DNA of 64,000 nt from Myxococcaceae bacterium JPH2. GTDB lineage: Bacteria > Myxococcota > Myxococcia > Myxococcales > Myxococcaceae. Below, one piece after another: positions 12,001-42,750 of this stretch. Both the position numbers and the translations under genes were made by a program. The notes beneath the pieces are model-generated. The model searched no databases and was not told the DNA's origin. It saw only the letters and a list, made by a program, of their open reading frames with translations. Location: contig JAEMGR010000041.1 of the NCBI GenBank assembly GCA_016458225.1, positions 1 through 64,000 on the forward strand. The letters are read 5' to 3'. How positions within the stretch are numbered: position 1 is the first letter of the stretch; each line of letters begins with the position of its first letter.

Positions 12001-14154
12001 TACGTGCTGTTCACCTCCGGCTCCACGGGACGGCCCAAGGGCGTGGGAGTCACGCACGCGAACCTGCACGCCTACGTCGAAGCCGTCACCGAGCGGCTCT
12101 CGCTCACCGAGTGCGCGAGCTTCGCGATGGTCTCCACCTTCGTGGCGGACCTGGGCAACACCGTGCTCTTCCCCGCGCTCCGCACGGGTGGATGGCTCCA
12201 CGTGCTGTCCCAGGAGTGCGCGTCCAGCCCGGACCTGCTGGCGGAGTACTTCCGACGCCACGCCATCGACTGCATGAAGATCGTCCCGTCGCACCTCTCC
12301 GCGCTGCTGACCGCACGACACCCGCGCGACGTGCTGCCACGCAAGCGGTTGGTGTTGGGCGGAGAGTCCTCCACCTGGCCGCTGCTGGAGACCGTGCATG
12401 CCCTGGCTCCCGAGTGCGAGGTCCACAATCACTACGGCCCCACCGAGACGACCGTGGGTGTGCTGGCGGGGCGCGTGACGATGCCCGTCCCCCAGCCCGC
12501 GCCAACGTCGGTGCCGCTCGGATGGCCGCTGGCCGGGACGCGCCTGTACGTCCTCGACGCCACGCTGCGCCCTGTTCCCATGGGAGTCCCGGGCGAGCTG
12601 TACGTCGCGGGGGCGCAGGTGACGCGGGGATACCTCGGCCGGCCTGAGCTGACCGCGGAGCGCTACGTGCCGGACCTGCACGCCCCCACGCCGGGCGCGC
12701 GCATGTATCGCACGGGAGACCGGGTGCGCTGGCTCACGGACGGTCGGGTGGAGTTCCTCGGCCGCGTGGACTTCCAGGTGAAGGTACGCGGGTTCCGCGT
12801 CGAGCCAGGAGAAGTGGCCCAGGTCCTGCGCGAGCTGCCCACCGTGAACGACGTGGTCGTCGTCGCGCGCGCGGACGCCACGGGAGACCAGCGGCTGGTG
12901 GCTTATGTGGTGCCGGCGTCGCTGTCCGCGTCGGAGCTGCGTGAAGCCCTCCAGCAGCGGCTACCCGAGTACATGGTGCCGTCTACCTTCGTGCTGTTGG
13001 ACGCCCTGCCCCTGACGCCCAACGGCAAGGTCGATCGAAACGCACTGCCTGCGCCCACGGCCATGGCCTCCACGGTCGAGCACGTCGCCCCCGCGACCGA
13101 GCAGGAGACCCAGGTGGCGCGGGCCTTCGCGGAGGTGCTGCGACTGGAGCGCGTGGGCGCCGAGGATGACTTCTTCCAGCTCGGTGGACATTCGCTCCTC
13201 GCGGTCCGGCTGATGGCGCTGCTGCGCGAACGGACAGGCGTGGCGCTCCCGCTCGCGGCGCTGTTCCAGGGCTCCACGGTGAGACGCCTCGCGGCGCGGC
13301 TCGAAGCCGGAGTCCACGCACGCCGCCCCAACCTCGCGCGGCTCGATGCGGGCCGAGCCGAGAGCCGCCCCGTCTTCTTCATCCACGGCGGCGGCGGCGA
13401 GGTGCTCAGCTACACGGAGCTGGTCCATCAACTGGGAGATGCGCACGTCCTCTACGGGGTGTCCGCACCGGGACTGGAAGGCGGAGCCCTTCCGCCGCCG
13501 ACGATGGAGGCGCTCGTCCGCCACTACCTGGAGCAACTCCGAGACGTGCAGCCCAGCGGGCCGTACCGACTCGCGGGCTGGTCGTTCGGAGGCGTCGCGG
13601 CCTACGAGCTGGCGCGTCAGCTCGAAGCCCTCGGAGAGCAGGTCGAGCTGTTGGCGCTGCTGGACAGCTACGCGCCCAGCGGCACCCCAGAGCCCGAGCC
13701 GCCGCCGCTCGCGAGGCTGGCGCGCTTCGCGAAGATGCTGGGAGTCACCCTGGACGATGTCCCCGAGGACGAATTGGAGCGCCTGACCGAGCTGCGCGGG
13801 CAGGAGCAAGTGACACGGATGATGGAGTTGGTGCGCACGATGCCGACGGCGGGCGCCCTGGACGCGGCGCAGGCCGAGCGCGTCTTCTCCGTGCATGAGC
13901 GTTTGAGCGAGGCCCAACGCGGCTACGTGCCCGCGAGTCCCTTCGGAGGCACGGCGCACTTCTTCCCAGCGGAGTCACGTCGAGCCACCCCGGGCCTGGC
14001 CTCGGATGGAGGCTGGTCCACCTGGATCCACGGGGGCCTCACGGTGTGCGAGCTGCCCGGAGACCATCAGTCCATCCTCCAAGCGCCCCAGGTGGCGACG
14101 CTCGCGGAGCACCTGAAAGCGCTCTTGCTCGCGCTGGAGGAACAGCCTCTCTGA
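1..14154 (+). CDS. Nonribosomal peptide synthetase, C-terminal part, ends in thioesterase (5' end outside window)
   Basis: The frame is open from base 1, so the gene starts upstream. The first residues (HGKLDRRAL) are the A10 motif of a preceding A domain. Domain order with approximate bases: PCP1 90-290 (Ser codon 181), C1 355-1690 (HHxxxDG 751-771), A1 1730-3225, PCP2 (Ser 3367), C2 3530-4865 (HHxxxDG 3943-3963), A2 4905-6375, PCP3 (Ser 6514), A3 6821-8300, PCP4 (Ser 8440), C3 8610-9950 (HHxxxDG 9016-9036), an A-domain stub, C4 10190-11520 (HHxxxDG 10582-10602), A4 11560-13050, PCP5 (Ser 13192), thioesterase 13365-14140 (GWSFGG, Ser 13582). A1 to A4 each keep the TSGSTGxPKG loop. My manual nine-residue pocket reading: A1 DILQMGMVW (Gly-like), A2 DLESIGTVV (unassigned, 6/9 to a Lys code), A3 DILQIGMVY (Gly-like), A4 DLTKVGHVG (Asp). 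It acts in the cytoplasm on carrier-bound aminoacyl thioesters. Product unknown. Confidence 0.97.
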   Translation, partial: TSHGKLDRRALPPPEATDAAAAAHVAPRTPTEELLAGLWAEVLRLERVGAEDDFFALGGHSLLATQVVARLRSTFRIDLPLRALFESPTVARLAANIDAVLQAHHGSEIPPLVPTASEADAPLSFAQQRLWFLDQLQPGTGTYNMPRALRLEGLLDVAALERAFTELLHRHAALRTSFPQQDGEPTQRITPSGPFALEVLDLSAREDREDAARRLTEAEASTPFLLATGPAIRVRLLRLEARRHILLLTMHHIVSDGWTMGILVRELSELYQAFTRDLPSPLSKLGPSYADYARWQRSWLQGEHLDQQREWWRKQLAGANQALELPTDFPRPPTQSFDGATLHFQLPLALSESLQALGRKHGATLFMTLLASIQTLLARHAGQEDIVVGSPIAGRRFAELEGLVGLFVNTIALRSRLDDDPTFVQLLGRVREATLGAYAHQDIPFEKLVEELQPRRDLSRAPLFQAMLILQNAPQSVADASVPDALTIQPIEVDNGAAKFDLTFTFTASSQGLVGALNYATALFQEDTARRMLARLRVLLEAVVQTPESRVQDLPLLTSDERREVLRAWNDTARPFDATCLHLQFEAQASRTPDALAVAFGDTRLTYRQLHERVLRMSRQLRDFGLQADERVALCVRRSPDMVVALLAILHAGGAYVPLDPAYPIERLTWMLQDSGAKVLLTQRDLLGFIPAEGLPTVLLDEVAQAPESALPPSDVRADNLAYIIYTSGSTGRPKGVMVTHRTAANFLHAMDALLDKNAGGTWLAVTSISFDIHVLELLWTLSRGFHVVLHDEQAAARGAALPLPEVLRRHTITHLQCTPPFARALLLAPESLASLGALRHLMMGGEALPRPLAEQLKQVLPSTALTNMYGPTEVTVWSSTHTVASGEDSATVSIGAPVANTQYYVLDTKGRPTPRGVPGELFIAGAGVVRGYHGRPELTAERFIPDAYSDRPGARMYRTGDLARWRHDGTLDFLGRTDFQVKVRGFRIELGEVEAVLARHEAVRQAVVGAQQDSAGDGRLVAWVVPTTGNGVSASALREYARKHLPEHMVPSLVVPMDAFPLTPSGKVDRKALPSPDTSGLERRHVPPATEAEQRVADIYAELLGVPTVGATDGFFELGGHSLLATRLMSRIRNAFAVELPLQVVFEAPTVAALAARIEASLRTGAHAARAAIEPVSRTDELPATHAQQRLWLLDQLAPGSPAYNIPIALPLSGTLDVEALRQALEALVHRHESLRTRFREGTAGPVQVIEAPSSLTLDLVDLREQPREHREAEAARLAEADAQRPFDLGTGPLLRASLIVLEEHEHVLLLNVHHIISDGWSLGVMVREMAELYRGFTSGTPARLAPLPYQFVDHAVWQRRWLESGELERQLAWWKTQLDDVPRELELPTDRPRVHRDIPRGEHLSVNLPLALSEALEAFCIREGVTPYMFLLAGFQLLLARYSGQDDINVGSPLSGRDRSEMEGLVGFFTNTVVMRTRLGGDPTVRELLRRVRTTTLDAFAHQHVPYEQLQPMRDLRQAPLFQVMFILQNMPPAELAVTGLTFRHVTRQPRAAKFDLTLTLLRGPQGFTGDLEYASDLFDPSTVARMMRHLETLLAAFLAKPEQRVSTLDLLGGEERAQLLFAWNDTRADFPDACIHTLFEAQARRAPRAIAARYEGVDLTYQELDARANQLAHALRRRGVGPETRVALSVERSLDVVIGLLGILKSGGAWVPVDPQLPRERLAFMLEDSEAAALVTRASLLERFPASLHPQALCLDTDAGTLARESAEAPRSGVTPEHLAYLLYTSGSTGKPKGTAIIHRAVANLVTHEAVAYGIGPGSRVLQFASLSFDLSVEEIFTTLCTGGTLVLAPLEKLMPGVPLQEFLRAEALTVISLTPAALAATSPEGLPALRTVISGGEALPVDVLARWAPSRTVLNTYGPTEATVVATLAEVRADGRRPSIGRPLANVRAYVLDAQGSPVPIGVKGELYLGGVGVARGYPGRPSLTAERFIPDALGTEPGARLYRTGDVVRWRDDGTLDFVGRADAQVKVRGFRIELGEVEAALARLPQVREAVVLAREDGPGGKRLVGYVVAHEGVETEGTQVREALKAELPEYMVPSAVVVLPRLPLTSNGKVDRKALPAPDYSGDARAYVAPATPTEEQLAALYGQLLGVPRVSARDSFFDLGGHSLLATQAISRIRQGFAVELPLRTLFEAPTVEGLARRIDSALAGQGLSPTPRQARARPVLPQPILPLEEAAANEALRPTPVEEQGVPEAWNATDTAYAPDAYPVRGLAEQAARHPERLAVEGNGTRLTYRELYDRVLRISGRLQALGVRADDRVALCVRRSPEMVAAMYAIHHAGAAYLPLDPSYPVDRLGWMLQDSGARVLITESPLLGLVPTEDRTVVLLDEAMQGPPATAEGAVHPDNIAYVIYTSGSTGRPKGVMVPHRAVTNFLPTLDGPLESARPGTWLAVTSISFDIHVLELLWTLSRGLQVILHDEHAAARGTAPSLSRLLRENTVTHFQCTPAFSRSLVLAPDSLPFLGSLRHMIVGGEALSGPLGQSLRAALPQAALTNMYGPTETTVYSTRYPVPEGELPATVSIGTPLANTRVYVLDAEGQRVPVGVPGELYIAGDGVVRGYHGRPDLTAERFVPDPFSTTPGARMYRSGDLTHWSTEGTLEFMGRTDFQVKVRGFRIELGEVEAVLARHPDVRQVVAGAHRDASGDGRLVAWVVPQPGMDVNATALREHARQHLPEHMVPSLFTAMESFPLTPNGKVDRKALPAPDASGLAHQYVAPASARERQVADLYASLLRVGRVGALDSFFELGGHSLSATQVLSRIRQSFGVDLPLSDFFSAATVRAVARRIDEEAASQPVTTLPALRARQDIEHPPLSFAQQRLWFLAKLEPDSASYNIPVAVLLDGVLDVAALAGAFRDLQLRHESLRTTFHEHAHQPFQHIEARPALPASWVDLSGPSSQAADTLVRDLFQYEAWLPFDVETGPLWRVLVARLSEERHALLLTMHHAISDGWSMGVLIQELTALYSARATGVAPRLEPLPIQYADFALWQRDWLRDDVLEAQLDWWKGQLQGAPSFLALPTDKPRPATRSVHGAAHPFQFPRELSDALHALCRQEGVTPSMVILAAFQLLLSWYSGQDDISVGSPIAGRTQPELEGLIGFFVNTLVLRTRLDGVTTFRELLDRVRTLTLGAYAHQDVPFEKLVEALRPERVPGRSPLFQVMVAYQNAPMPEVLGPQLRMSPYKLEHRAALFDLTLAISDRGQGLRGQLEYSTDLFEPSTAARIVGHLRMLLESVLANPSRPLATVSLLTEDERRLLMERWRDADAATLADASLYRLFKAKALATPDALAAEWEGHTLTWRELHERARTIYRALLAQGVLSLPAAPPVVAVPRTESLPLSFAQQRLWLIHQLEPDSPSYNIPSAVRLEGALHVDALQQGLSELVRRHEALRTLFQEHAGNPVQRILPPTPLELTRVDLMHLGAGALDEARRLVFDESTRGFDLAKGPLLRASLLKLKPEEHLLVLNMHHIVSDGWSMGVLVRELAALYQAFSERRPSPLPELPLQYADFAVWQRKWLDGDALDAQLTYWKRQLTGAPAMLELPTDKPRPAVQTSRGAYVPVQFSTAQSEALATLCQREGVTPFMALLALWQVLLARYSGQEDISVGSPIAGRQRGETESLIGFFVNTLVLRGRVEGARSFRQLVQDAKETALGAYAHQDLPFEKLVEELQPQRSLSHSPLFQVLLVLQNTPATTLALPGLTFLPFERDFEAAKADLTLSLVQAPTGLSGWLGYRTDLFERRTVLQLVEHLRTLMDSALANPEARLDSLSWLTASERTRVLETLQVAPLVETPPRLLHTLIAEQAAQHPERPAVASEGRVLTYGELDARANQLAWHLRELGVGPDARVALCLERSVDTVIALLGIWKAGGAYVPMDPAQPSLRLQSLVEEIGAAALVTVTTRSQTLQTPHTPHVCLDGDAPRITRHPTSAPSVTQHPEQLAYVLFTSGSTGRPKGVGVTHANLHAYVEAVTERLSLTECASFAMVSTFVADLGNTVLFPALRTGGWLHVLSQECASSPDLLAEYFRRHAIDCMKIVPSHLSALLTARHPRDVLPRKRLVLGGESSTWPLLETVHALAPECEVHNHYGPTETTVGVLAGRVTMPVPQPAPTSVPLGWPLAGTRLYVLDATLRPVPMGVPGELYVAGAQVTRGYLGRPELTAERYVPDLHAPTPGARMYRTGDRVRWLTDGRVEFLGRVDFQVKVRGFRVEPGEVAQVLRELPTVNDVVVVARADATGDQRLVAYVVPASLSASELREALQQRLPEYMVPSTFVLLDALPLTPNGKVDRNALPAPTAMASTVEHVAPATEQETQVARAFAEVLRLERVGAEDDFFQLGGHSLLAVRLMALLRERTGVALPLAALFQGSTVRRLAARLEAGVHARRPNLARLDAGRAESRPVFFIHGGGGEVLSYTELVHQLGDAHVLYGVSAPGLEGGALPPPTMEALVRHYLEQLRDVQPSGPYRLAGWSFGGVAAYELARQLEALGEQVELLALLDSYAPSGTPEPEPPPLARLARFAKMLGVTLDDVPEDELERLTELRGQEQVTRMMELVRTMPTAGALDAAQAERVFSVHERLSEAQRGYVPASPFGGTAHFFPAESRRATPGLASDGGWSTWIHGGLTVCELPGDHQSILQAPQVATLAEHLKALLLALEEQPL
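6641..6830 (+). other. PCP3-A3 junction of the NRPS without a condensation domain
   Basis: After PCP3 the protein runs through about 60 Pro/Ala/Glu-rich residues directly into the C-A linker (EAWNATDTAY) and the start of A3. A C domain of about 450 residues would be expected here. The surviving C-A linker suggests that the C domain was removed in frame, not that an A domain was newly attached. The reading frame is intact on both sides. Confidence 0.8.
9961..10190 (+). other. Truncated adenylation domain between two condensation domains of the NRPS
   Basis: Downstream of C3 the protein has a normal C-A linker and about 45 residues that align with the beginning of the other A domains (ATPDALAAEWEGHTLTWREL, compare TPDALAVAF...LTYRQL in A1). 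It stops after RALLAQGV and continues with a PCP-C-type linker into the QQRLW motif of C4. The A3 to A10 motifs and a PCP are absent, so C3 and C4 are in tandem. The frame is kept, which points to an in-frame deletion of one A-PCP unit. Confidence 0.85.
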
Positions 14155-29302: not shown

Positions 29303-30181
29303 TCACTCCCAGCGCTGCCATTCTGCGCCGTCGAATGAGCAGACGTTCTTCTGCCCAATCGACCAGAGCATGCCCTCCGCATCGGTGAGCTTGTAGAAAC
29401 TCTTCGGCGCGTTGCGTCCGAAGTCGACCGCCACCAGCGCCCCATTCTCCAGCACATACAATGCGCTCAGGGTCGCCACGTACAGATGCCCCTTGAACCA
29501 TCGGATGTCCCAGATGTCTTCACCCAGCCCGGTCTTCAGGGCCTCCCACTTCTTCCCGCGCCCTCGCAACAACGTCCCTGACTGCCCGCCGGCGTAGACT
29601 TGTCCATCTCCGGCACAGCACACGGCGCTCAGGATGACCCGCGCTGGGCTCGTACACTGCGTCCACGCTCCCTGGTCGCAGTGCCAGATCTCTCCGTCCC
29701 AGCCGACCGCGTAGAGGTCCTTCGCGTCGAATCCGTCGAGCGCCTCGAACCCCACCACCTGGTCGCCCTTGGCCTTGGGCGCATGCATGGCCCGCCAGCG
29801 CCCTTCCCCCTCACGGCGGAAGACCTCTCGCCCCATCCCGAAGGCATAGGCATGTCCCGCGATGCACGCGCAGCCTCGAAGGTCCGCGGGCTTGGCAATC
29901 GTCTCCGAGCCCTCTTTTCCGCCGACGTATGTGAAGACCTTCCCGTCGCCCGAGACCACCACCAGCTTCTCGCTCGGTTCCTTGACGACGCACATGCCCG
30001 CTGCGTTCCAGGGAAGATCCGCGACGCTGCCGAGCGCGCCTTTGTAGACGCCTCCAAGCCGCGTGTGGGCGACCTCCTTCTTGTGCAGCTTCTTGTCCTG
30101 CAGCGCCAAATAGACAAGGTCCTTGAACCGCGCCGCTCCGCGGGAGAGCAGATGCTCCTTCGACACGCCAAGACTCGCCAT
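29303..30181 (-). CDS. Hypothetical beta-propeller-like protein
   Basis: This 292-residue protein has no signal peptide. After about 40 basic residues it consists of repeated blades of the form (L/V)YAxGxxGxxxRxxGxxWxxL, for example LYAVGWDGEIWHCDQGAW, VYAGGQSGTLLRGRGKKW and LWSIGQKNVCSFDGAEW, as in WD40/BNR-like propellers. The ATG at 30181 has AAGGAAC nine bases upstream; the GTG at 30235 would add 18 residues without such support. Proteins like this occur in myxobacteria as orphan or toxin-immunity partners, but no toxin gene is adjacent here. No function is assigned. Confidence 0.7.
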   Translation of the reverse strand: MASLGVSKEHLLSRGAARFKDLVYLALQDKKLHKKEVAHTRLGGVYKGALGSVADLPWNAAGMCVVKEPSEKLVVVSGDGKVFTYVGGKEGSETIAKPADLRGCACIAGHAYAFGMGREVFRREGEGRWRAMHAPKAKGDQVVGFEALDGFDAKDLYAVGWDGEIWHCDQGAWTQCTSPARVILSAVCCAGDGQVYAGGQSGTLLRGRGKKWEALKTGLGEDIWDIRWFKGHLYVATLSALYVLENGALVAVDFGRNAPKSFYKLTDAEGMLWSIGQKNVCSFDGAEWQRWE

Positions 30182-30279
30182 TGCACGTTCCTTGAATCGG
30201 GCCCCTCCCCACTTCGAGAGAAGCCCTCTGTCCACGAACCCGTCGCTCGCGATGCAGGACCTTCATACTGGATACCCCC

Positions 30280-30685: not shown

Positions 30686-33600
30686 ATGTCCACTCTTGAT
30701 TCCGGCCCCGTGACCTCCTCGGTCCGGGTGGAACTCCTGACCGCGCCCTCCCTGAACTTCGCCATGGAGCAGAGTGGCGTCCCGCTCATCCGCGAAGCAC
30801 GGATCCGCAACCTGGGGACTCGCGCCGTCGGGCCCATGGTCCTGGACGTTCGCCTCGAACCCGAGCTGGGGGACTCCGTTCGTATCCCCGTCCCGCTCTT
30901 ACCCGCGGGAGAGGAGGTCAGCCTTGGGGTGATCGACCTGCGCCCGCCCGCCGGACACCTGCGCACCGTGCTGGAGACGGAGCGGGCCCAGCTTCGCTGG
31001 TCGCTCCAGCAGGAAGCCCAGGTGCTCGCCGAGGGGACCGCGCCGGTGGAGATCCTCCCGTACAACCACTGGCCCGGAGCGAGCGCGCCGCTCGGTCTGC
31101 TGACCACCTTCGTCACGCCCAACCATCCCGTCATCCCCGAGATCCTCAAGGACGTCCGCGCTCGGCTCGAGAAGGCCCTCGGGGATGGCGACCTGCCGGG
31201 GTACCAGCGGCACCAGCCGCAGCATGTCCTGTCGATGATGGCGGCGCTCTATGGCGCCATCCAGGACCTGGGGCTCAGCTACATCGAGGCGCCTCCCAGC
31301 TTCGAGTCCCTGGGACAAAAGGTGCGCCTGCCGGATCAGCTCCTCCGGGAGCGGATGGGCTGCTGCCTCGACGTGACGCTGCTCTTCGCGTCCGCCCTCG
31401 AGGCCATGGGGCTCCACCCGGTAATCCTCCTCGTCCACGGTCACGCGCTGCTCGCCACGTGGCTCATCGACGAGCGGTTCCCGGAGGGCCTGGTCGAGGA
31501 CGCGGCCCGGTTGCGGAACCTGGTGTCGCTGGGCGCGCTGATTCCCTTCGACGCCACGGCCGCGCTGGTCGCCGGGCGCCCCCACTTCGAGCAGGCGATG
31601 CTCAAGGGACGCGAGCACCTCGCGGAGGACTCGCACTTCCGCGCCGCGCTCGACGTGCGCGTCCTGCGCCACGATGGCTACCGTCCCCTGCCCCTTCGCA
31701 AGGTCGAAGCCCCTCCCGCAGACTTCGAGTCCACCGAGCCAGCGCGCGCCCGCCTCCACACCATCCTCGCGAGCGCAGCCGCCGCGATGCCCGCGCAGGA
31801 GCCGCCACCACCACCGCCCCAGGTCGTCTCACGCTTCGCGCGGTGGAAGGAGAAGCTGCTCGACCTCACGTTGCGGAACAAGCTGCTCAACTTCCGCCTG
31901 GAGACGCGCGGCGCGCTGCCGCTGCACATGCCCGACCTCGCCGTGTTCGAGGACACCTTCTCCAGCGGTGAGAGCTTCGAGATCCACCCCGCCCCCGAGT
32001 CCAGCGGCGCGGACGTGCGCGATACCAAGCTCCAACTCGCGCGGGGAACGGCGGATGAGCTGACCGCGCGCCGCCTGCAGGACCTGGACAAGTGCCTGCT
32101 GCACTCCCCACTGCGAGAGACCGAGCTGTGGACCCGCGCGCGCCACCTGGAGCGGACCGCGCGCACCGACCTGGAGGAAGGTGGCGCTCACACGCTGTAC
32201 CTCTCGCTGGGGCTGTTGCGCTGGTTGGAGCCGGGGGATCCCACCCCGCGACTCGCGCCGCTCATCCTCTACCCCGCGACGTTCCGGATCGACCGCGCCC
32301 GCAAGCGCCTGCGCATCGAGCGGCTCGCCGACGAGCCGATGGGCAACGTCACCCTCGCGGAGAAGCTGAAGCAAGACTTCGGACTCGACGCGCGGGCGCT
32401 CACGGCCTTGGAGTCCGATGAGAAGGGATTGGATGTCCCCGGCATCCTTCGCGCGGTGCGGACCGCCATCCAGAGTCGCGCGGGATGGGAGGTGCTCGAA
32501 GAGGCCCACGTTGGACTCTTCGCCTTCACGAAGTTCCTGATGTGGAAGGACCTCGCGGACAACGAGGCGGGACTGTTGTCCAATCCCCTGGTGCGACACA
32601 TCGCCGCGGCGGGGACGTCCGCGCCTCCGGTGGGCGGCACCGAGTTCCGTCCCGAGAAGCTGGATGACGAGGTCCCCGTCGCCGACCTGCCCTGTGTCGT
32701 CAACGGGGACTCCACGCAGCTCGCGGCGATCGCCTCCGCGCTCTCGGGGCGCTCCTTCGTCCTTCAAGGCCCACCGGGAACGGGCAAGTCGCAGACCATC
32801 ACCAACCTGATCGCCGCCGCCGTCGCGCGCGGCAAGTCCGTCCTCTTCGTCTCGGAGAAGATGGCCGCGCTGGAGGTCGTGCATCGGCGCCTGAAGGACG
32901 TGGGGCTGGACGACTTCTGCCTCGAGCTGCACAGCCACAAGAGCAACAAGAAGGAAGTGCTCGAATCCTTCGGTCGCGCCCAGGACCGGATGCGTGGCAT
33001 CCACGAACCCCCGTGGGAAGACCGGTCGCGCGAGTTGGGCAAGGCCAGGACCGCGCTCAATGACTACGTGCGCGCGGTTCATCAGCGTTGGCCCTTGGGC
33101 CAGAGTTCCTACGACGGAACGAACCGACTGCTGCGCCTGCGTGAAGCCCCGTCCATCGCCCTGCCCCATCCTGCTCCCGAGGCGCTCACCGAGTCCGAAC
33201 TCCGCGCGGCCCAGGAAGAGGTCGCGGCGCTCGTCAGCCCGCTGCGCAACGTCCGGGCCCTGGGGGCTCACCCCTGGGGTGCCGTGCGCGGCGTCCATTG
33301 GACGAATGCCCTGGAGGATCAGCTGCTCCGGCTGCTGGGAGAAGTTCGCACCAGCCTCGACGGCGTGGAGGCGACAGCGACGGGCCTCGCCTCGGCCCTG
33401 GGGCTCGAAGCCATTCCGAACACGACCGCGAAGCTCCGCGACCTCGCGGAGTTGGGGCTCGTGCTGTCCACAGGTCCCCTTCCTCCCGCGGCCCAACAGG
33501 ACGACGGGTGGGCGCTCACCGCGCAGCGCATCCGCGAGCAGGCCGGGTGCCTGCGCGAACAGTCCTCTCGCGAGGCGGACGTCGCGTCCCGCTGGAGTCC

Positions 33601-36514
33601 GAGTCTCTTCTCGTTGGATCTCACCCCGCTCCAGGCCCGCTTCGAGAAGTGGGCCGGCGCCTTCGTGCTCTTCGCGTTCCTCTTCCTGTGGAGCGCGCGA
33701 CGCCTGCTGACGCCTCACGTCACCCGCGCACTGCCCGGCAACCGCGACATCGCCCGAGACCTCACCACGGCGCGACAGATCGTCGCGGGCCGCCAGCGCA
33801 TCGAGACGCAAGGACGGGCGCTCGAAGAGCCCCTGCGCGTCCTCACGCCCGCCGAGCAGACCCAGCCCGACGCACTGGAGAGCCTCACCCAGCGCGCCTC
33901 CCAGGCTCGCGCGCTGAAGGAAACGCTGGGCGTCGCGCGATTGCAGCTCCCGGGAACTGCGCCGGCCCGTGACGCGCTGCGGACGCAAGCCAGCGCGATG
34001 CAGAGTGCACTCGAGCGGCTCGCCCGCGCCGAGGCGGCCCTGGCCGAGACCGTGAAGGCGCATCCCTGGGAACAGCCGACCTCCGCGCAGCACCGCGCGT
34101 CCCTGCGGAGCCAGGTCGACGCCTGGCGGGTCCACCTGCGCGCGCTCAAGCCGTGGTGTCAGTACCAGGCCCAGGCCGACCGGATCCGTGCCCTCGGCTT
34201 TGGTGCCTTCATCGACGCGGTCGAGCAAGAGAACGTCGCGCCCGACGCGCTGAGCGCCGCCTTTGAGCGGGCCGTGCTGACCACCTGGTCGCGCGCCCTC
34301 CGCGACAGCGAGCCATCACTCCGGGACTTCGACGCGGACGCCCACACGGGGCGCATCGAGCGCTTCCGCCAGCTCGACCTCGCGCACGTGAGCCTCTCCC
34401 GACAGCGCGTCCTGCATCAGCTCGAACAGCGACTGCCCGTGGGCCTCGGCGCGAGCGCGGAGAGCTCCGAGCCGGGAATCCTCGCCCGAGAGCTGCGCAA
34501 GAAGCGGGGACAGATGGCGCTGCGCAAGCTGCTCGCCTCCATCCCCAACCTCGCGCGCCGACTCAAGCCGTGCTTCCTCATGAGTCCGCTGTCCATCGCG
34601 CAGTACCTGCCCGCCGACGGGCAGCGGTTCGATCTGCTTGTCTTTGACGAGGCCTCGCAGATCGGCACCCATGACGCCATCGGCGCGATCGCCCGAGCCA
34701 ACCAGGTCATCGTCGTGGGTGACTCCAAGCAGCTCCCGCCCACGAGCTTCTTCAGCCGCGGCGACGACGCGGAGGCCACGCCCGACGAGAACGACGTCGT
34801 CGAGCTGGAGAGCATTCTCGAAGAGGCGCTCGCCAAGCAGTTCCCCCAGCAGATGCTGGGCTGGCACTACCGCAGCCGCCACGACAGCCTCATCGACTTC
34901 AGCAACCGGCAGTACTACGAGGGCCGCCTCCAGGTCTTCCCGGCGGCGCGTGCGCGCGTGGCGGACCTGGGCGTGAAGTGGCACCCCGTCCCGGACGGCG
35001 TCTATCAATCCAAGACCTCCGGCAAGACAGCGGCCATCAATCCCCGCGAGGCCGAGGTCCTCGTCGCGGAGCTGGTGAAGGCGCTCCGCAAGCACACGCC
35101 CCAGGAGCGCACGTTCGGCGTCGTCACCTTCAGCATGGTGCAGCAGCAGGTCATCCTGGATCTGCTCGACGCCGAGCGCGCGAAGCACCCGGAGCTCGAG
35201 GCGCACTTCACGTCCTCCGAGCCCGTCTTCGTCAAGAACCTGGAGAACGTCCAGGGCGACGAGCGCGACGAGATCTTCTTCAGCATCTGCTACGCCAAGG
35301 ACACCGAAGGGAAGCTGCGGATGAACTTCGGCCCCTTGAGTCGCGCGGGCGGCGAGCGGCGACTCAACGTGGCGGTGACACGTGCCCGCTGTGCCCTGCG
35401 CATCTTCTCCACCCTGACGCATGAGCAGATCGACTTGTCGCGCACGACCTCGGTGGGCGCTCGCCATCTGCGCGAGTTCCTGCGTCGCGCCGCGGAGTCC
35501 GCCGCCCCGTCGAGCGCGAGCACACGAGAGCCCGAGGACGCGCTCCCGCAGGACGTGGCGATGGCGTTGCGCGCGCGGGGCTACACGGTCCACGCGGACG
35601 TGGGCACGGGCGGCTATCGGGTGGACCTCGCCGTGGAGCATCCTTCGCGGCCTGGGGAGTACGTGCTCGGCATCGAGTGCGATGGTCCCCACTATCGCGC
35701 GGCGTCGAGTGCCCGAGACCGTGAGCGGCTGCGGCCCGAGGTCCTGCAAGGGCTGGGGTGGCGCCTGGTTCGCGTCTGGTCGCTCGCCTGGGAGGAGGAC
35801 CGTGAGGGGCAGCTCCAGCGCCTCGCGGCGGCGGTGAAGGACGCGGTGGAAGGTGCGCCACCGGCTTCGCTGGCGCCCCCGGTCGAAGACACGCCCGCCG
35901 AGGTGGACACCCTGAGCGCACCGCCGGCGGACGGGCCCGTGGCCGCAGCCACGATGCGCAGCGCGGCGGTGCAGTCCTACGTCCCCGCGACGCTCCCGGC
36001 CGTGAAGGAGGGCACGGACTTCTTCGCGCCCACGTCGGCCTCGCGCCTGCGTGAGCAACTCCAGTCCGTGCTCGAACAGGAGGGCCCCATCCACGAGGAG
36101 CTGCTCGCGCGACGCATCCAGGAGGCGTGGGGCTTGGGCAAGCTGACGCCACGGGTCCGCAAGCGGATGGAGGAGCAGCTCGCGCAGCTGATTCAGCGCG
36201 GCGCCATCCTGGCGCAGGGCGAGTTCCTCTGGCCGGAGTCTCGGAAGCCCGCGCAGTTCACGGGCTTCCGAGGCGCGCATGACGACCGGGATGTCAGCCA
36301 GATTCCTCCCGAGGAGCTGGCCAACGCCGCCGCCGCCGTGCTCGCGCATGCGCTCTCGCTGGAGCGCGATGAGTTGCTGCGCGAGACGGGGCGGCACTTC
36401 GGAGTGAGCCGGCTGACGCGCACCGTGGTGCCCGTGCTCGAAGCCGGCCTGGAGCTGCTCACCCGCGAGGGGCGGTGCACCCTCGCGGGCGAGCGGGTCA
36501 TCTGGCGGGAGTAG
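30686..36514 (+). CDS. DUF4011 / superfamily 1 helicase / Vsr-like nuclease multidomain protein, candidate antiphage factor
   Basis: The protein has 1942 residues. An N-terminal beta-sandwich-like part (1-115) is followed by a transglutaminase-like segment: GCCLDVTLLFASALEAMGLH (Cys226/227) and HGHALLATW (His253). DUF4011 sequence begins near 390 (RFARWKEKLLDLTLRNKLLN). The SF1 helicase has Walker A GPPGTGKS (695-702) and DEAS (1321-1324) followed by VGDSKQLPP. It is split by a long Arg/Ala/Leu-rich coiled region that contains one hydrophobic helix (FVLFAFLFLW, about 990-1007). A PD-(D/E)xK-type Vsr/MTES_1575-like nuclease follows (YRVDLAV Asp1647, IECDGPHY Glu1664), then a DUF3320 winged-helix tail (about 1775-1942). 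The set matches the DUF4011-helicase-Vsr (Hhe) architecture reported as antiphage; I recall this from the literature and could not check it. Start at 30686 has GAGG five bases upstream. No partner gene is adjacent. Confidence 0.9.
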   Translation: MSTLDSGPVTSSVRVELLTAPSLNFAMEQSGVPLIREARIRNLGTRAVGPMVLDVRLEPELGDSVRIPVPLLPAGEEVSLGVIDLRPPAGHLRTVLETERAQLRWSLQQEAQVLAEGTAPVEILPYNHWPGASAPLGLLTTFVTPNHPVIPEILKDVRARLEKALGDGDLPGYQRHQPQHVLSMMAALYGAIQDLGLSYIEAPPSFESLGQKVRLPDQLLRERMGCCLDVTLLFASALEAMGLHPVILLVHGHALLATWLIDERFPEGLVEDAARLRNLVSLGALIPFDATAALVAGRPHFEQAMLKGREHLAEDSHFRAALDVRVLRHDGYRPLPLRKVEAPPADFESTEPARARLHTILASAAAAMPAQEPPPPPPQVVSRFARWKEKLLDLTLRNKLLNFRLETRGALPLHMPDLAVFEDTFSSGESFEIHPAPESSGADVRDTKLQLARGTADELTARRLQDLDKCLLHSPLRETELWTRARHLERTARTDLEEGGAHTLYLSLGLLRWLEPGDPTPRLAPLILYPATFRIDRARKRLRIERLADEPMGNVTLAEKLKQDFGLDARALTALESDEKGLDVPGILRAVRTAIQSRAGWEVLEEAHVGLFAFTKFLMWKDLADNEAGLLSNPLVRHIAAAGTSAPPVGGTEFRPEKLDDEVPVADLPCVVNGDSTQLAAIASALSGRSFVLQGPPGTGKSQTITNLIAAAVARGKSVLFVSEKMAALEVVHRRLKDVGLDDFCLELHSHKSNKKEVLESFGRAQDRMRGIHEPPWEDRSRELGKARTALNDYVRAVHQRWPLGQSSYDGTNRLLRLREAPSIALPHPAPEALTESELRAAQEEVAALVSPLRNVRALGAHPWGAVRGVHWTNALEDQLLRLLGEVRTSLDGVEATATGLASALGLEAIPNTTAKLRDLAELGLVLSTGPLPPAAQQDDGWALTAQRIREQAGCLREQSSREADVASRWSPSLFSLDLTPLQARFEKWAGAFVLFAFLFLWSARRLLTPHVTRALPGNRDIARDLTTARQIVAGRQRIETQGRALEEPLRVLTPAEQTQPDALESLTQRASQARALKETLGVARLQLPGTAPARDALRTQASAMQSALERLARAEAALAETVKAHPWEQPTSAQHRASLRSQVDAWRVHLRALKPWCQYQAQADRIRALGFGAFIDAVEQENVAPDALSAAFERAVLTTWSRALRDSEPSLRDFDADAHTGRIERFRQLDLAHVSLSRQRVLHQLEQRLPVGLGASAESSEPGILARELRKKRGQMALRKLLASIPNLARRLKPCFLMSPLSIAQYLPADGQRFDLLVFDEASQIGTHDAIGAIARANQVIVVGDSKQLPPTSFFSRGDDAEATPDENDVVELESILEEALAKQFPQQMLGWHYRSRHDSLIDFSNRQYYEGRLQVFPAARARVADLGVKWHPVPDGVYQSKTSGKTAAINPREAEVLVAELVKALRKHTPQERTFGVVTFSMVQQQVILDLLDAERAKHPELEAHFTSSEPVFVKNLENVQGDERDEIFFSICYAKDTEGKLRMNFGPLSRAGGERRLNVAVTRARCALRIFSTLTHEQIDLSRTTSVGARHLREFLRRAAESAAPSSASTREPEDALPQDVAMALRARGYTVHADVGTGGYRVDLAVEHPSRPGEYVLGIECDGPHYRAASSARDRERLRPEVLQGLGWRLVRVWSLAWEEDREGQLQRLAAAVKDAVEGAPPASLAPPVEDTPAEVDTLSAPPADGPVAAATMRSAAVQSYVPATLPAVKEGTDFFAPTSASRLREQLQSVLEQEGPIHEELLARRIQEAWGLGKLTPRVRKRMEEQLAQLIQRGAILAQGEFLWPESRKPAQFTGFRGAHDDRDVSQIPPEELANAAAAVLAHALSLERDELLRETGRHFGVSRLTRTVVPVLEAGLELLTREGRCTLAGERVIWRE

Positions 36515-36523: not shown

Positions 36524-39154
36524 TCAGCGCGCGGCGTCCTGCTTCAACCCATACGTCTTGCCGCCGAACGCGAGCGTGAAGTTGGCGGGGCTGGAGACGG
36601 GGAGCTGGTAGGAGAGCTTCACCGTCACGCTGCTTCCGCTGGGGAGGGTCTGCCACGTCGGCAGCGTGAGCTGCACCCGGTGGAAGTCCCCCTTGAGGCC
36701 GCCCACGTTCGAGCCGCTGTGGTCGCTGCGAATCACGCTCAGCGTCCAACCGGACTGCTGCGACATGGTCGCGGGCGCGGACGTGGCGTAGTCAAACTGA
36801 AGCAGCGCGCCTCCGGGGATGGTCTGCCCGGAGTTGTTGGTGAGCTTCATCGCGGGGTTGATGGGGTAGTTCGCATCACCGACGGCGAAGTCTCCTACCT
36901 CCACGGCCACGTCGAGCACGTCCGTGGGCATCCCCTGGTTCGCGCGCAGGTTGCGGTACGGCGAGGCGGTCTTGAACTTGTCGTAGATGAGGTTCGTCAG
37001 CGTCGAGCCCATGAAGTACTCGCCCTGGCCGTTGTTGCGGGTGGCATCGAAGGCGTAGTCCCCCGCCAGCTCCCAGAACATGATGCCGCCGATGCCCCGG
37101 TCCACCACGTACTGGGCCTTCACCGCGATGGACTCCTCGTCCTCGGTGGAGAGGAAGACCTTCTTCGTCGCGTTCCACAGCCACGGCGCGACCATGGAGG
37201 CGCTGTAGCTGCGGACATAGGTGCCCGTGAGCTTGTCCGTGGGGTCGTTCACCGGATCCAACCCATACGCCGTCACGTAGGTGCCCTGGAGCCCCGCCTG
37301 GAGGTTCTTCGCGTGCCACATCGGGTTGCTGCCCGAGCCCACCTCGGCCCCCAGCGAGTTCTTGTCGTGCCAGAGGTTGTCGATGCCAATGGCCCCGTTG
37401 CCACACGGCACCGTCGAGCCCACGTTCGGCCCCGTGCCCGGCGGGCACTTCGTCTGGTCTCCCAGCGGCGCCGTGCCCCACAGGCCGTTCGTGCCATTGC
37501 TCACGTTCTGCCAGCCACGGGTGTAGTACGGCACGCCCAGGTTGATGCGCCCCGCTTGCAGCGCGCCTCGGAAGTAGTGATAGGCCCAGTCCGTGTTCAG
37601 GTACCCGATGCCGCCGTAGGTCCCATACACGTTCCAGTTGAGCAGCTCGCCATCCTTGCCGTCGTCGAACAGCGGCGCGTTCGGCCCCACGAACTGGTTC
37701 CAGGCACCGTGCAGGTCGTACGTCATCAGGTTGGCGTAATCCAGATACTGGGTGACCTGATACGTCTCCGTCCCTCGCAGGATCCAGCCCGAGGCCGTGG
37801 TGGCCGCCGTCAGCAGGTAGTACTTGCCGTCCGCCGCGCTCGCCGCGTCGAGCTTCTCGCGCAGCGTCTTCATCAGCGCGACATATCCCTTCATGAGTCC
37901 CGAGCGCCGAGGCGTGGCGATGGAGAAGTCATCCGGGTTGCCCGCGTTGGGCATGGACGTGGCGTACTCGAAGTCGATGTCCGCGCCGTCAAACCCATAC
38001 GTGCGCAGGAACGCGACGACCGAGTCCGCGAACGTGTTGATGGCCGCCTGGTTCACCGTGTTGCTGCTCGTCGTCGTCAGCGTATAGAAGCCGCCGCTCG
38101 CCACGCGGTTGCCATTGTCATCCAGGTAGCCACCCGACTCCGCCCAGCCCCCAATGGACACCAGCGTCTTCACCGCCGGGTACTGCTTCTTGAACTTGTT
38201 GAGCAGGTTGAAGTGCCCCTTGTAGGGGAAGGCGGGATCCATCTCCGCGCCGGCCACGCCGGGCCACTCCTGCCCCGTGGCGGGGTTGTTCGGCGTGTTC
38301 GCTCCCACGGAGACCTTGTTCTGGCCATCCACGTGCGCGAACGCGTAGTTGATGTGAGTCACCTTGTTCCAGGGAATCTTCGGCACCAGATAGGACGGGG
38401 CGCCGTTCTTGCCGTCTCGCCAGCTCGTGAAGTACCCGATGATGCGGCGCGGGTGGTCCGCCCCCATCTTCTCGCGGCCCGCCGAGTCGTAGACGAGGCA
38501 GTACGGCACCGTCACGCCCGGCGTCGAGTACAGGCCATCCGGACGGCAGCCCACCGGCTCGCTTCCGCCGTTGGTGGTCGTCACGGGGAGCGCGGTGCTC
38601 GCCGCGGAGACGTTGCCCGCCGCGTCGCGCGCCTTGACAGTGAATGAGTAGGCCGTGTTCGCGGTCAGGCCCGAAACGATCGCCGAGGGGTCCGTGACGG
38701 ACACGGCCAGGGTGCTGCCCTGGTACACGTCGTAGCCCGTCACGCCCTTGTTGTCCGTCGACGCGGTCCACGCCAGCGCGACGCTGGTCGGGCCCACGCT
38801 GGTGGTGCGCAGGCCGGCCGGCACGGAGGGAGGAACCGTGTCCACCTCACCGCCGGTGCCGCACGCGCCCACCAGCTTGTACCAGCCGCTCGCCGTTCCG
38901 TAGACCGGGTCCGCGGTCCAGATGGCGACGAGGGCCTCATAGAGATTGTTCTGATACACGACGCGGTCGCCGGCCTTGTAGATGGTGCTGGCGTTCCACG
39001 CGGGGACGCCGGTGCAGTCCACCGCCAGCGCCGCGCGGCTTCCCTCCAGCGACGAGGGCGACGCATCGGCGGCGTCCGAAGACAGACACGCGGTCGTGCT
39101 CGAGAGCAGCAGCATCCCCGCCAGGGACGCGCTCCTCCAAGAAAGGCAATGCAT
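36524..39154 (-). CDS. Secreted GH18 chitinase with chitin-binding, FnIII and ChiC-type C-terminal domains
   Basis: The protein has 876 residues. A signal peptide ends near TTAC (possible lipoprotein, weak lipobox). Domains in order: a CBM5/12-type chitin-binding module (VPAWNASTIYKAGDRVVY...GWYKLVGAC), one fibronectin type III domain (about 105-195), the GH18 barrel (about 225-745) with SIGGW and FDGADIDFEY (D392, D394, catalytic E396), and a C-terminal domain resembling pfam06483 (LDVAVEVGDFAVGDANYPIN onward). It hydrolyses beta-1,4 GlcNAc links in chitin outside the cell with substrate assistance. ATG at 39154 has GAGGAG six bases upstream. It lies 47 bases downstream of an ECF sigma gene on the same strand. 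Confidence 0.95.
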   Translation of the reverse strand: MHCLSWRSASLAGMLLLSSTTACLSSDAADASPSSLEGSRAALAVDCTGVPAWNASTIYKAGDRVVYQNNLYEALVAIWTADPVYGTASGWYKLVGACGTGGEVDTVPPSVPAGLRTTSVGPTSVALAWTASTDNKGVTGYDVYQGSTLAVSVTDPSAIVSGLTANTAYSFTVKARDAAGNVSAASTALPVTTTNGGSEPVGCRPDGLYSTPGVTVPYCLVYDSAGREKMGADHPRRIIGYFTSWRDGKNGAPSYLVPKIPWNKVTHINYAFAHVDGQNKVSVGANTPNNPATGQEWPGVAGAEMDPAFPYKGHFNLLNKFKKQYPAVKTLVSIGGWAESGGYLDDNGNRVASGGFYTLTTTSSNTVNQAAINTFADSVVAFLRTYGFDGADIDFEYATSMPNAGNPDDFSIATPRRSGLMKGYVALMKTLREKLDAASAADGKYYLLTAATTASGWILRGTETYQVTQYLDYANLMTYDLHGAWNQFVGPNAPLFDDGKDGELLNWNVYGTYGGIGYLNTDWAYHYFRGALQAGRINLGVPYYTRGWQNVSNGTNGLWGTAPLGDQTKCPPGTGPNVGSTVPCGNGAIGIDNLWHDKNSLGAEVGSGSNPMWHAKNLQAGLQGTYVTAYGLDPVNDPTDKLTGTYVRSYSASMVAPWLWNATKKVFLSTEDEESIAVKAQYVVDRGIGGIMFWELAGDYAFDATRNNGQGEYFMGSTLTNLIYDKFKTASPYRNLRANQGMPTDVLDVAVEVGDFAVGDANYPINPAMKLTNNSGQTIPGGALLQFDYATSAPATMSQQSGWTLSVIRSDHSGSNVGGLKGDFHRVQLTLPTWQTLPSGSSVTVKLSYQLPVSSPANFTLAFGGKTYGLKQDAAR

Positions 39155-39201
39155 TGCATTCTCCTCGGGACACGCGGCGCGCCAGGACAGCGCACCGGGT
39201 T

Positions 39202-39879
39202 TCAGGACCAGGGGCCCTGTCTCAAAGAGGAAGGCACCCGCGAGTTCGGGTCACCACCCGTCCGCCGGCGCGCCTCCGCGTTCGGCAGCCGATGCACGCC
39301 GCCTGGCACACCCTCTCGCGCCACCAGCGCGCGCAGGTGCGCTCGCCCGAGCCGCAGCCGGCTGCGCACCGTCTCGAACGGAACGCAGAGCACGCCCGCC
39401 AGCTCCGGCACGCTCATGCCATGCACGTGATGCATGACCAGCACGCGGCGCTGCTCACCCGGAAGCCGCTCCAGCAGCGCATCCACGCGCTGACGCCAGA
39501 GACAGTCCTCGCGGGTGTCGTCGAGGCTCGGCGCGGCCACCTCGGCCAGCGCCTCCTCGTCGAGGCGCGAGCGCTCCAGCCGCGCGCGACGGGAGGCCGC
39601 GAAGCTCACGCGCCGCACCACCTGGTCCGCCCAGGCGACGAGCGCCCCATCGCCTCGGTAGCTGGGCAACCCTCGGTAGATGGCGACGAGGGCCTCTTGC
39701 GTGACGTCGTCCACCTCGGTGTCTCGCCGGAGCAGCCCGCGCACCCGCGTGCGGACTCGCGGCAACAGCTCCGTGAGGAGCGCTCCCACCGAGTCACGCG
39801 ACCACGCATGCGGGGCCATCAAAGGGAAGCCCTGCCCCACGCCCCGCCCGCCTCCGTCCCTGCGTCTGACGCTCGCCAT
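39202..39879 (-). CDS. ECF-type RNA polymerase sigma factor
   Basis: This 225-residue protein has sigma region 2 (TEVDDVTQEALVAIYRGLPS, then AWADQVVRRV) and region 4 (DALLERLPGEQRRVLVMHHV, then SVPELAGVLCVPFETVRSRL). ATG at 39879 was chosen because GGGAGA lies five bases before it; an ATG at 39891 is also in frame. There is no anti-sigma gene next to it. The gene directly downstream is the GH18 chitinase, so the simplest reading is a dedicated chitinase-inducing sigma factor that also transcribes itself. The activating signal is unknown; regulation could be transcriptional or through the Arg/Pro-rich C-terminal tail. Confidence 0.92.
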   Translation of the reverse strand: MASVRRRDGGGRGVGQGFPLMAPHAWSRDSVGALLTELLPRVRTRVRGLLRRDTEVDDVTQEALVAIYRGLPSYRGDGALVAWADQVVRRVSFAASRRARLERSRLDEEALAEVAAPSLDDTREDCLWRQRVDALLERLPGEQRRVLVMHHVHGMSVPELAGVLCVPFETVRSRLRLGRAHLRALVAREGVPGGVHRLPNAEARRRTGGDPNSRVPSSLRQGPWS

Positions 39880-39970
39880 GTGTTCTCCCATCGCGTGCGC
39901 TGGAAAGGTCGGGCACGGGGCCGCCCGGCCCATCGGGCGCACCCGATGGGCTGGCTCGCGGCACGTCAAC

Positions 39971-40021
39971 GCGGCACCCGCGCCCCGTGCTCCTCCGGAC
40001 CCGGAGCAGCACGGGTGCCGC
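39971..40021 (-). terminator. Nested hairpin terminator after the GH20 gene
   Basis: Outer arms GCGGCACCC / GGGTGCCGC enclose an inner stem CCGTGCT-C-CTCCGG / CCGGAG-C-AGCACGG (39985-40014, one mismatch, 2-base loop). It starts seven bases beyond the GH20 stop on the minus strand and separates the GlcNAc operon from the sigma/chitinase pair. Confidence 0.75.
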
Positions 40022-40027
40022 GGTGCC

Positions 40028-42721
40028 TCAGTTCAGCTCGACCACGCGGCTGGTACGGCCATCCTCGGCGCGCGCCCGCAGCAGCACCCGGCCCGCGACC
40101 CGGACCGGCTGCGCGTAGGGCAGCCAACGCTTGCCACCATCGAGCGAGTACTCGAGGCCCAGTCCGGGGAAGCGCACGTTGGCGAAGAGCTGACCGCCGC
40201 GACGCTCGGCCCCCGGCAAGGGGATGCGGTAGTTGACGCCCACCCCGTCCGGCAGCTCCCCGCGCACGTCCACGGGACGATAGGCCCCGAGCCGCGGCAG
40301 CACGTACTGGCCCAGGCTGTTGGCGAAGCGCGCCCACAGCGCGGGCATCTCGGAGACGGGCGGCAGGTCCGGGTTCCACGCGCGCTCGGCCACGCCCAGC
40401 AGCTTGGGGAACGCGAGGTACTCCATCACCTCGGGCGTCTTCACGTTCTCGCCAAAGAGCAGGCCGTGCATGCCCAGGATGTTGCGGCGGCCCTCGGCGG
40501 TGAGGTGCTCCTTCGCGTCCCAGGACTCGGGCGGAATGGGGTTGCCCATCCGGTCATGCGTCCCGTTCACGTAGACATCGAACGGGCGGTACTCGAAGGT
40601 CTTCTTCTCGTCGACGAAGTTGGCCCAGTAGTAGCCGGGCTCGTCGGGGTCCTTGTTGTACGCGAGGTCCATGTACAGGTTCGTCGCGTGCGACAGGATG
40701 ACCCGGTAGCCCTGGTTGGCGTACCGGTAGGCATCATCCTCGCGGCCCCAACCCCAGACATTGCTCCACGGCATGGGGATGAAGCCCGGCAGCGCCAGCC
40801 CGTGGTGGATGATGTCGTCCCAGCCCGTCACCGCGGCGCCCGATTGGGCAATGAGGCCACCCCACCGCGAGAAGAACAGGTTGAAGCGCTCCAGGTCGCT
40901 CAGGCCCTGCGTCTCCGGATTGCCCTGGCACGCGGGAGAGCCCGCCCACCACACGTTCGCCGCCAGCGAGGGCAGCTCATCGCCGCCCGCGTGGATGGCC
41001 ACCAGCCGGGCCGCGGGCACCGCGTCGTAGCGGGCCTTCAGCTCGCGCACCACCTTGCCCAGGAAGGCATACGTGGAAGACAGACACGGGTTGACGAAGT
41101 TGTCCGTATAGCCTTGCACGCTGGTGTGGCGGGACGCGTCGTTGGGGTCCACCAGGCGATACTCCTGGGCCCGCGTGGGGTCCGAGTCCCGATACTGGCG
41201 ATAGCGATACTCCATGGCCTTCACCGCGGCCCGCGCGTGGCCCGGCATGTCGATCTCCGGGATGATGTCGATGTGGCGCTCGGCCGCGTAGGCGAGCAGC
41301 TCCTCGAACTCCTTCGTCGTGTAATAGCCGCTGCCCCGGCCCACGAAGTTGAGCGTCGCGGTCTCGAAGCCCTGGTAGCTCGGGGCCGCGCCCCCATTGG
41401 CCTCGGTGGGGGAGCTGGCCTTGAAGGCGACGCGATCGCCAGACCCCAGGTCGCTGCCACTACCCAGGCCGATCTGCAGCATCTCCGCCTCTTGCAGATC
41501 ATGGCCGCGCCGCGAGCCGTACGTCGTCAGCTCGGGGATGCCGGGCACCTCGATGCGCCAGCCCTCGTCATCCGCCAGCCGCAGGTGCAAGGCATTGAGC
41601 TTGTAGTGGGCCATCACGTCGAGCAGCTTCTTCACCGTCTCCTTCGACTGGAAGTGCCGCGCCACATCCAGGCTCATGCCGCGGTACGCGAAGCCCGGCG
41701 CGTCGACAATGCGCACGCGGGGGAGCGCCACGGACGCAGGCCGCGCCTCGCGCTTCACCGAGGCGGTGTAGGCCGCCACGGGGACGAGCTGGCGCAGCGT
41801 CTGGATGCCATGGAACACACCCGTGGCATCCGAGCCCACCAGGGACACGGCCGAGTCCGTGACCTCCAGGGTGTAGCCCTCCGCGTCTCGGGCGCCGTCG
41901 CCATCGACATCCAGCGTGGCGTCCACGCGCAGCTCGATCCGCTCCGAGCCCGCATTCGCCTCGCGCACACTCACCGGCGCGGCGATGACGTCACCGAGCG
42001 CCGCGGCCAGATAGGCGGCCTCGCCGGACAGGCCCGGCGCGTAGCGGATGCCCACCGCGCCCTCCAGCGTCAGCACGCCGTCGCGCGCCTCCACCTGGCG
42101 GGGCTGCGGCAGCAAGCGGCCCTTGAGGTCGAGCGCCTGGAACGAGGGGTTCTCCGCATAGCGCAGGCCCGGCGTCTGGACGGGGAGCACGTCTCCCTCG
42201 AAGCGCGTGGTCTGCTTGGGGTCCGCCGCGTCCAGCCGCACGGTGGCGGGGACCGCGATGGACACCGCGTCCTGGAGGGCGCCCCCCTCGAAGACGACGC
42301 GGAAGCCGGCGGGCGCGTCCGTCTTCAGGATGGCCCAGTCGGAGGCGAGCACGGACAGCGTGCGCCGCTCCCCTGGCCGCAGGGGCGTGAAGTTCGCCAG
42401 GGGCTCCAACACGTAGGCGTCGCCGCTCTGCGCCTGCCCCGCCTTGGAGATGCGGATGCCCTGCGCCGCGAGCGCCTGGATGCCCGTCGCATCCCCCTCG
42501 CCTTCATCGAGGACGCGGCGCACGAAGCTGAAGTAGAGCTTCCATCCGGTGGCCCCCAGCTCGCGCGTGCCGCGATTCTCCAGGGTGAACTCGGAGCGGA
42601 AGAACTTCCAGCTCCCCACCGAGTTGTCCACCGGCTGCCACTCGACGGCCAGCTCCGTCGGGCGACGGCAGGCCGAGGCCAGCAACGTCACGACTGCGAG
42701 GCACAGCACGAGCCGCTTCAT
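40028..42721 (-). CDS. GH20 beta-N-acetylhexosaminidase (chitobiase-type lipoprotein)
   Basis: The protein has 897 residues. A lipoprotein signal ends LLASAC. The N-terminal domain is the CHB_HEX carbohydrate-binding type (FFRSEFTLENRG...GWKLYFSFVRR), followed by GH20b and the GH20 barrel with FAYRGMSLDVARHF and the catalytic pair in AIHAGGDELP (Asp581, Glu582). The C-terminal domain (RYSLDGGKRW-like, LRARAEDGRTSRVVEL) is the CHB_HEX_C fold. It removes terminal GlcNAc from chitobiose and longer chito-oligomers by substrate-assisted catalysis, at the outer membrane or periplasm. ATG at 42721 has GGGAGA five bases upstream. It is the last gene of the murQ-nagF-nagE-porin-GH20 operon. Confidence 0.95.
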   Translation of the reverse strand: MKRLVLCLAVVTLLASACRRPTELAVEWQPVDNSVGSWKFFRSEFTLENRGTRELGATGWKLYFSFVRRVLDEGEGDATGIQALAAQGIRISKAGQAQSGDAYVLEPLANFTPLRPGERRTLSVLASDWAILKTDAPAGFRVVFEGGALQDAVSIAVPATVRLDAADPKQTTRFEGDVLPVQTPGLRYAENPSFQALDLKGRLLPQPRQVEARDGVLTLEGAVGIRYAPGLSGEAAYLAAALGDVIAAPVSVREANAGSERIELRVDATLDVDGDGARDAEGYTLEVTDSAVSLVGSDATGVFHGIQTLRQLVPVAAYTASVKREARPASVALPRVRIVDAPGFAYRGMSLDVARHFQSKETVKKLLDVMAHYKLNALHLRLADDEGWRIEVPGIPELTTYGSRRGHDLQEAEMLQIGLGSGSDLGSGDRVAFKASSPTEANGGAAPSYQGFETATLNFVGRGSGYYTTKEFEELLAYAAERHIDIIPEIDMPGHARAAVKAMEYRYRQYRDSDPTRAQEYRLVDPNDASRHTSVQGYTDNFVNPCLSSTYAFLGKVVRELKARYDAVPAARLVAIHAGGDELPSLAANVWWAGSPACQGNPETQGLSDLERFNLFFSRWGGLIAQSGAAVTGWDDIIHHGLALPGFIPMPWSNVWGWGREDDAYRYANQGYRVILSHATNLYMDLAYNKDPDEPGYYWANFVDEKKTFEYRPFDVYVNGTHDRMGNPIPPESWDAKEHLTAEGRRNILGMHGLLFGENVKTPEVMEYLAFPKLLGVAERAWNPDLPPVSEMPALWARFANSLGQYVLPRLGAYRPVDVRGELPDGVGVNYRIPLPGAERRGGQLFANVRFPGLGLEYSLDGGKRWLPYAQPVRVAGRVLLRARAEDGRTSRVVELN

Positions 42722-42734
42722 CGGTTCTCCCTTC

Positions 42735-42750
42735 GCCACGTCGCCGTGGC
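42735..42750 (-). other. Small hairpin between porin and GH20 genes
   Basis: GCCACG / CGTGGC with a 4-base loop lies in the 63-base gap between the porin and GH20 genes. It may tune the relative amounts of the two products; it has no T tract. Confidence 0.25.

Follow-up and report, generated by a model that had tools for sequence, protein, structure and literature searches.

Giant proteins that combine a transglutaminase-like (TG) domain, an SF1 helicase, a Vsr-like nuclease and a winged helix, and that have no accompanying modification gene, were described in 2013 (Biol Direct, PMC3710099), and a modification-independent role in defence was inferred for related giant proteins in the same work. 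DUF3320 overlaps the winged helix (PMC3710099). A related DUF4011 gene is part of the core genome of Pseudomonas aeruginosa (PMC10250203), and protease-activated nuclease pairs are reported in PMC12799240. No literature origin was found for the names ProA and PDC-S37, which are used below as they stand in NCBIfam and PADLOC, respectively.

Here we analysed a 64,000-nucleotide stretch of DNA (the window) on contig C41 of the 9.0-Mb genome of Myxococcaceae bacterium JPH2. An intact single frame of 1942 amino acids, whose translation contains no internal stop, occupies positions 30686-36514 of the plus strand. Its GC fractions at the three codon positions (0.74/0.49/0.88) follow the pattern of a real gene, and its product is a real, intact and well-conserved member of a known family.

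30686..36514, plus strand: ProA-family gene (NCBIfam NF058533, 1957.9 bits; curated cut-off, 1500 bits)

The match to NF058533, "anti-phage protein ProA", is full-length (residues 24-1909 on positions 1-1903 of the 1903-position model) and takes in an N-terminal beta-sandwich and a TG region. A longer frame starting at 30416 was also considered and is probably wrong, because the profile homology begins at residue 24 counted from the start at 30686. A copy with 93% identity is present in a sister genome, the closest named relative being Citreicoccus inhibens (93% identity), and copies with 66-69% identity are found in Pyxidicoccus, Corallococcus and Myxococcus.

The initial annotation had assigned the protein to the Hhe family. 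This was the wrong family: the score against Hhe (NF042953) was 792.3 bits, clearly under the curated cut-off of 2000. A PADLOC run on the protein, which the same annotation had suggested, ranked the defence candidate PDC-S37 first (1318 bits; residues 379-1935 on positions 5-1541 of the 1550-position model, this near full-length coverage, rather than PADLOC's own threshold, being the basis of the assignment) and Hhe second (534 bits). With NF058533 above its cut-off over the whole length and PDC-S37 as the PADLOC candidate, the earlier proposal of a single-gene antiphage candidate holds, and we consider it likely that this is an antiphage protein of the ProA family that works alone and spreads horizontally. 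The antiphage action is suggested by the name of the family and by what had been inferred in 2013 (PMC3710099), and we infer the DNA target and all steps of the mechanism.

The body of the protein carries the following features.

31853..32368, plus strand: DUF4011 (residues 390-561; Pfam, 119.3 bits)
32708..32899, plus strand: SF1 helicase core, first part (AAA_11, residues 675-738; Pfam)
32768-32791, plus strand: Walker A motif GPPGTGKS (Lys701 in 34 of 34 aligned homologues)
34646..34657, plus strand: Walker B motif DEAS (residues 1321-1324; homologue alignment)
34811..35407, plus strand: SF1 helicase core, second part (AAA_12, residues 1376-1574; Pfam)
35549..35833, plus strand: MTES_1575 Vsr-like nuclease (residues 1622-1716; Pfam) with Asp1647, Glu1664 and Asp1666
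36017..36163, plus strand: DUF3320 (residues 1778-1826; Pfam)

The matches to DUF4011, AAA_11/AAA_12, MTES_1575 and DUF3320 all exceeded the Pfam gathering scores, which bears out the domain order that had been read from the sequence. By both sequence and structure, the motor is related to Upf1, Ighmbp2, Sen1 and Dna2. Lys701 and Glu1664, the two residues singled out earlier for mutation in this part of the protein, are conserved wherever they are aligned. Asp1321 and Glu1322 of Walker B occur in every aligned homologue, Asp1666 of the nuclease likewise in all, and Asp1647 in 30 of 31. Given that the motor and nuclease residues are near-invariant, both activities are expected to be intact.

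Between the two parts of the helicase core lies an insertion in which a lone hydrophobic helix had been noticed and taken as a possible membrane anchor.

33014..34429, plus strand: all-helical insertion in the helicase (residues about 777-1248; model, mostly pLDDT 85-95)
33650..33718, plus strand: hydrophobic helix within the insertion (residues 989-1011; sequence and model), not a conserved membrane segment

The helix does exist at residues 989-1011, the most hydrophobic window of the insertion, and the form AFVLFAFLFLW (residues 992-1002) is kept among most aligned myxobacterial relatives, a point in favour of a membrane-tethered sensor anchored by this helix. Outside the myxobacterial clade, however, it is not conserved: alpha- and beta-proteobacterial homologues are polar at these positions, e.g., ASNFLVRGSRQRKVRDKL or AWWPKAVFAKRAMLNKL. 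On the Kyte-Doolittle scale, the helix reaches a 19-residue mean of 1.61 at best, and a segment of this protein's own TG domain exceeds it at 1.91. Moreover, in a model of residues 640-1600 the stretch forms a single helix within an insertion that is ordered and entirely helical (model residues 138-609); an overall pTM of 0.50 leaves the packing of this model uncertain. A conserved transmembrane helix was thus not found, the segment being polar in many homologues and part of an ordered helical bundle in the model, and a membrane-tethered sensor is highly improbable.

The N-terminal region contains a beta-sandwich followed by a TG-like domain.

30716..31060, plus strand: Ig/CARDB-like beta-sandwich (residues 11-125; AlphaFold2 model and structural matches)
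31073..31684, plus strand: transglutaminase-like (PNGase-like) domain (about residues 130-333; model, fold and residue conservation)
31364..31366, plus strand: Cys227, candidate nucleophile (Cys in 35 of 37 homologues)
31442..31444, plus strand: His253, candidate catalytic histidine (His in 36 of 37)
31550..31552, plus strand: Asp289, candidate acidic member of the triad, often replaced by Glu in homologues (E 19, D 16, N 1 and P 1 of 37)

An AlphaFold2 model of residues 10-385, built from 37 homologues, had a mean pLDDT of 91. Its beta-sandwich matched numerous Ig-like sandwiches with Z of about 10, the beta-barrel domains of transglutaminases among them, and Foldseek alone on the N-terminus returned mainly beta-sandwich matches. 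PNGase is a member of the transglutaminase superfamily. Among the matches listed, only PNGase covered the TG-like domain (yeast PNGase, 3esw; Z 9.9, rmsd 3.9 Å over 156 residues, model range 121-324). Sequence profiles were weak: DUF553, a profile of the TG-like superfamily, gave 13.8 bits, under its Pfam gathering score of 20.5; DUF553 matched 17 of the 37 members and Transglut_core matched 6 weakly; and a profile of the N-terminal module had no match among PDB sequences.

Residue conservation agrees with the fold. The secondary structure of the model fits the triad order, with Cys at a helix start, His in a strand and the acid at a strand end, and position 289 is Asp or Glu in 35 of 37 homologues. 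The Cys-His-Glu order recurs in nine plasmid relatives (seven by pattern and two by reading the sequence), and the triad is degenerate in two homologues (L034 and L069). The transglutaminase-like Cys/His segment proposed in the initial annotation is therefore upheld by the PNGase fold match and the near-invariant triad Cys227-His253-Asp/Glu289. That annotation had pointed to Cys226 and Cys227 together; Cys227 is the conserved residue, whereas Cys226 is kept in only 10 of 37 homologues, which narrows the bench question to Cys227 and its partners His253 and Asp289. Protein is the probable substrate of this TG-like cysteine peptidase.

The TG module is detachable, since two ProA-like bodies, G147 C229:8547-13097 and G149 C40:34281-38870, have open frames of 1636-1651 amino acids that match NF058533 only from about position 350 and lack the module. 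We also observed the beta-sandwich and TG unit as the C-terminal half of TPR-matching proteins in four other genomes of the family.

L080:4306-6003, L081:4162-5904, L082:2290-5484, L083:3322-5250 and L084:3304-5208: beta-sandwich and TG unit in TPR proteins, Cys-His-Glu order kept

The starts of these TPR proteins were judged by eye, with no prediction run, to be signal-peptide-like, and the recurrence of the TG unit in such myxobacterial proteins shows it to be a mobile unit. It could be imagined that ProA is a one-chain protease-gated nuclease, in which the TG peptidase would free the helicase-nuclease by cleaving either ProA or a trigger protein of the phage. The near-invariant triad fits this idea, while the TG-less bodies (G147 and G149) and the degenerate-triad homologues (L034 and L069) indicate that such gating would not be universal, and we regard it as unlikely. 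If true, it would make ProA a single-protein counterpart of the nuclease pairs reported in PMC12799240.

Around the gene, the window contains the following.

124-14154, plus strand: 4676-aa frame with a GGHSLLA carrier-protein motif
29303-30211, minus strand: 302-aa gene with beta-propeller-like repeats and no Pfam match, absent at the sister-genome site
36524-42739: GH18 chitinase and GH20 hexosaminidase genes on either side of a sigma factor gene

The first of these is probably a multimodular synthetase, judging from its size and motif; the chitinase was found in 5 of 76 searched genomes of the family. No defence island was detected among the ten neighbours of ProA, and the flanks of most homologues hold few defence matches. 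At E 1e-15, no genes were common to the window and the flanks of the Corallococcus, Myxococcus, Pyxidicoccus and Sorangium copies; the same-genus copy is the only one with flank genes in common. Three relatives in another genus are collinear with the window on the chitinase side, with DNA similarity starting exactly at window 36518, so that the homology break falls 4 bases past the ProA stop. Directly left of ProA, the segment 29254-30374 is absent from the sister genome. The locus is labile.

Elsewhere, a DpdF-like helicase gene (L039:16053-18806, minus strand; 683 bits) adjoins ProA in a Sericytochromatia MAG. On a Sinorhizobium plasmid, a "DNA repair exonuclease" gene (L109:14910-16034, plus strand) begins 2 bases after a ProA relative, with ThiF and multiubiquitin genes nearby; the relative and the exonuclease possibly form a two-gene variant.

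A housekeeping distribution, named earlier as possible counter-evidence to the antiphage proposal, is ruled out: ProA was found above the cut-off in 10 of 145 genomes of the order, scattered within genera, and in 11 of 195 genomes of the phylum. This patchiness also bears on whether the protein is a Dna2-like helicase-nuclease of DNA repair or recombination with no defence role, any protection from phage being incidental. Fold and sequence matches to Dna2, Upf1 and Ighmbp2, the related DUF4011 core gene of P. aeruginosa (PMC10250203) and a window site that is not a defence island would suit such a role; a repair gene, however, would be expected in most relatives, and a gene that is patchy within genera and plasmid-borne makes it improbable.

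Relatives of ProA occur on 319 plasmid records, 199 of them conjugative. Of the four plasmid relatives examined first, one lies on an ICE-like P. aeruginosa plasmid, and the three from Comamonas, Thioclava and Bacteroides score above the ProA cut-off. Close to the Comamonas plasmid copy (2399 bits) are a PDDEXK nuclease, a TIR protein and a gene pair encoding an AAA ATPase and a UvrD-helicase; other plasmid relatives are solitary amid metabolic genes. An anti-plasmid or anti-conjugation barrier against incoming transferred DNA, in place of antiphage action, would be in keeping with the modification-independent helicase-nuclease architecture and with the many plasmid-borne relatives, which could exclude competitors. 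Nevertheless, the curated family name is anti-phage, and the two roles are mutually compatible; we consider the barrier as the actual role to be quite unlikely. The patchy distribution, the differing flanks, the break after the stop codon and the plasmid relatives together indicate that the gene is mobile and not housekeeping. Some relatives behave as fixed genes, as the P. aeruginosa core gene (PMC10250203) indicates; despite this, the pattern is that of a stand-alone mobile defence gene.

No pattern match was obtained among IMG/VR viral contigs with patterns from a single sequence, which reach only close relatives. A near-full-length relative (L106, MT836269.1) was present on an unverified 11.4-kb human faecal scaffold labelled "Bacteriophage sp.", which carries no annotation and may be a bacterial fragment.

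Taken together, ProA most likely serves in defence as a helicase-nuclease that is independent of modification and whose TG domain processes protein. Invading DNA, or a replication intermediate that is abnormal, would be bound by the DUF4011 region together with the helical insertion and the winged helix at the C-terminus; the SF1 motor, of Upf1 type, would then load and translocate, after which the Vsr-like nuclease would cut. Given that no DNA-modification partner gene lies beside ProA, self would be told from non-self not by methylation but by the structure of the DNA or by a trigger from the phage. The protein that the beta-sandwich and TG peptidase probably process could belong to the phage or the host or be ProA, and this processing would serve as a gate or as a second effector. 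Besides correcting the family from Hhe to ProA and dropping the membrane tether, the present analysis shifts the main interest to the peptidase-like module that is conserved in this helicase-nuclease.

Compared with known systems, the protein has DUF4011, the SF1 helicase and the MTES_1575 nuclease in common with Hhe (NF042953 and the PADLOC Hhe model). This genome also encodes a second DUF4011 giant of 1748 amino acids (G000 C6:219425-224671, equivalent to L085:6426-11672, minus strand), which is Hhe-like at 1417 bits, below the cut-off of 2000, and begins at DUF4011, without a TG module; its gene adjoins one for DUF4041/T5orf172 and one for an SbcC-like ATPase. The PDC-S37 profile spans the body only and leaves out the N-terminal TG module. 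The MTES_1575 giant proteins of PMC3710099 share with the window protein the TG domain, the SF1 helicase, the Vsr-like nuclease, the winged helix and the lack of a modification gene; they have an N-terminal HEPN RNase, whereas Pfam detected no HEPN domain in the window protein, whose N-terminus is the beta-sandwich. That sandwich and the TG segment had been regarded as additions of this copy. They are indeed present, but the extension is not special to it, since it is part of the NF058533 family model and TG in such a combination was described in 2013. With ProA itself the window protein shows no domain-level difference, and it scores (1958 bits) below the plasmid ProA proteins of Comamonas (2399) and Bacteroides (2197).
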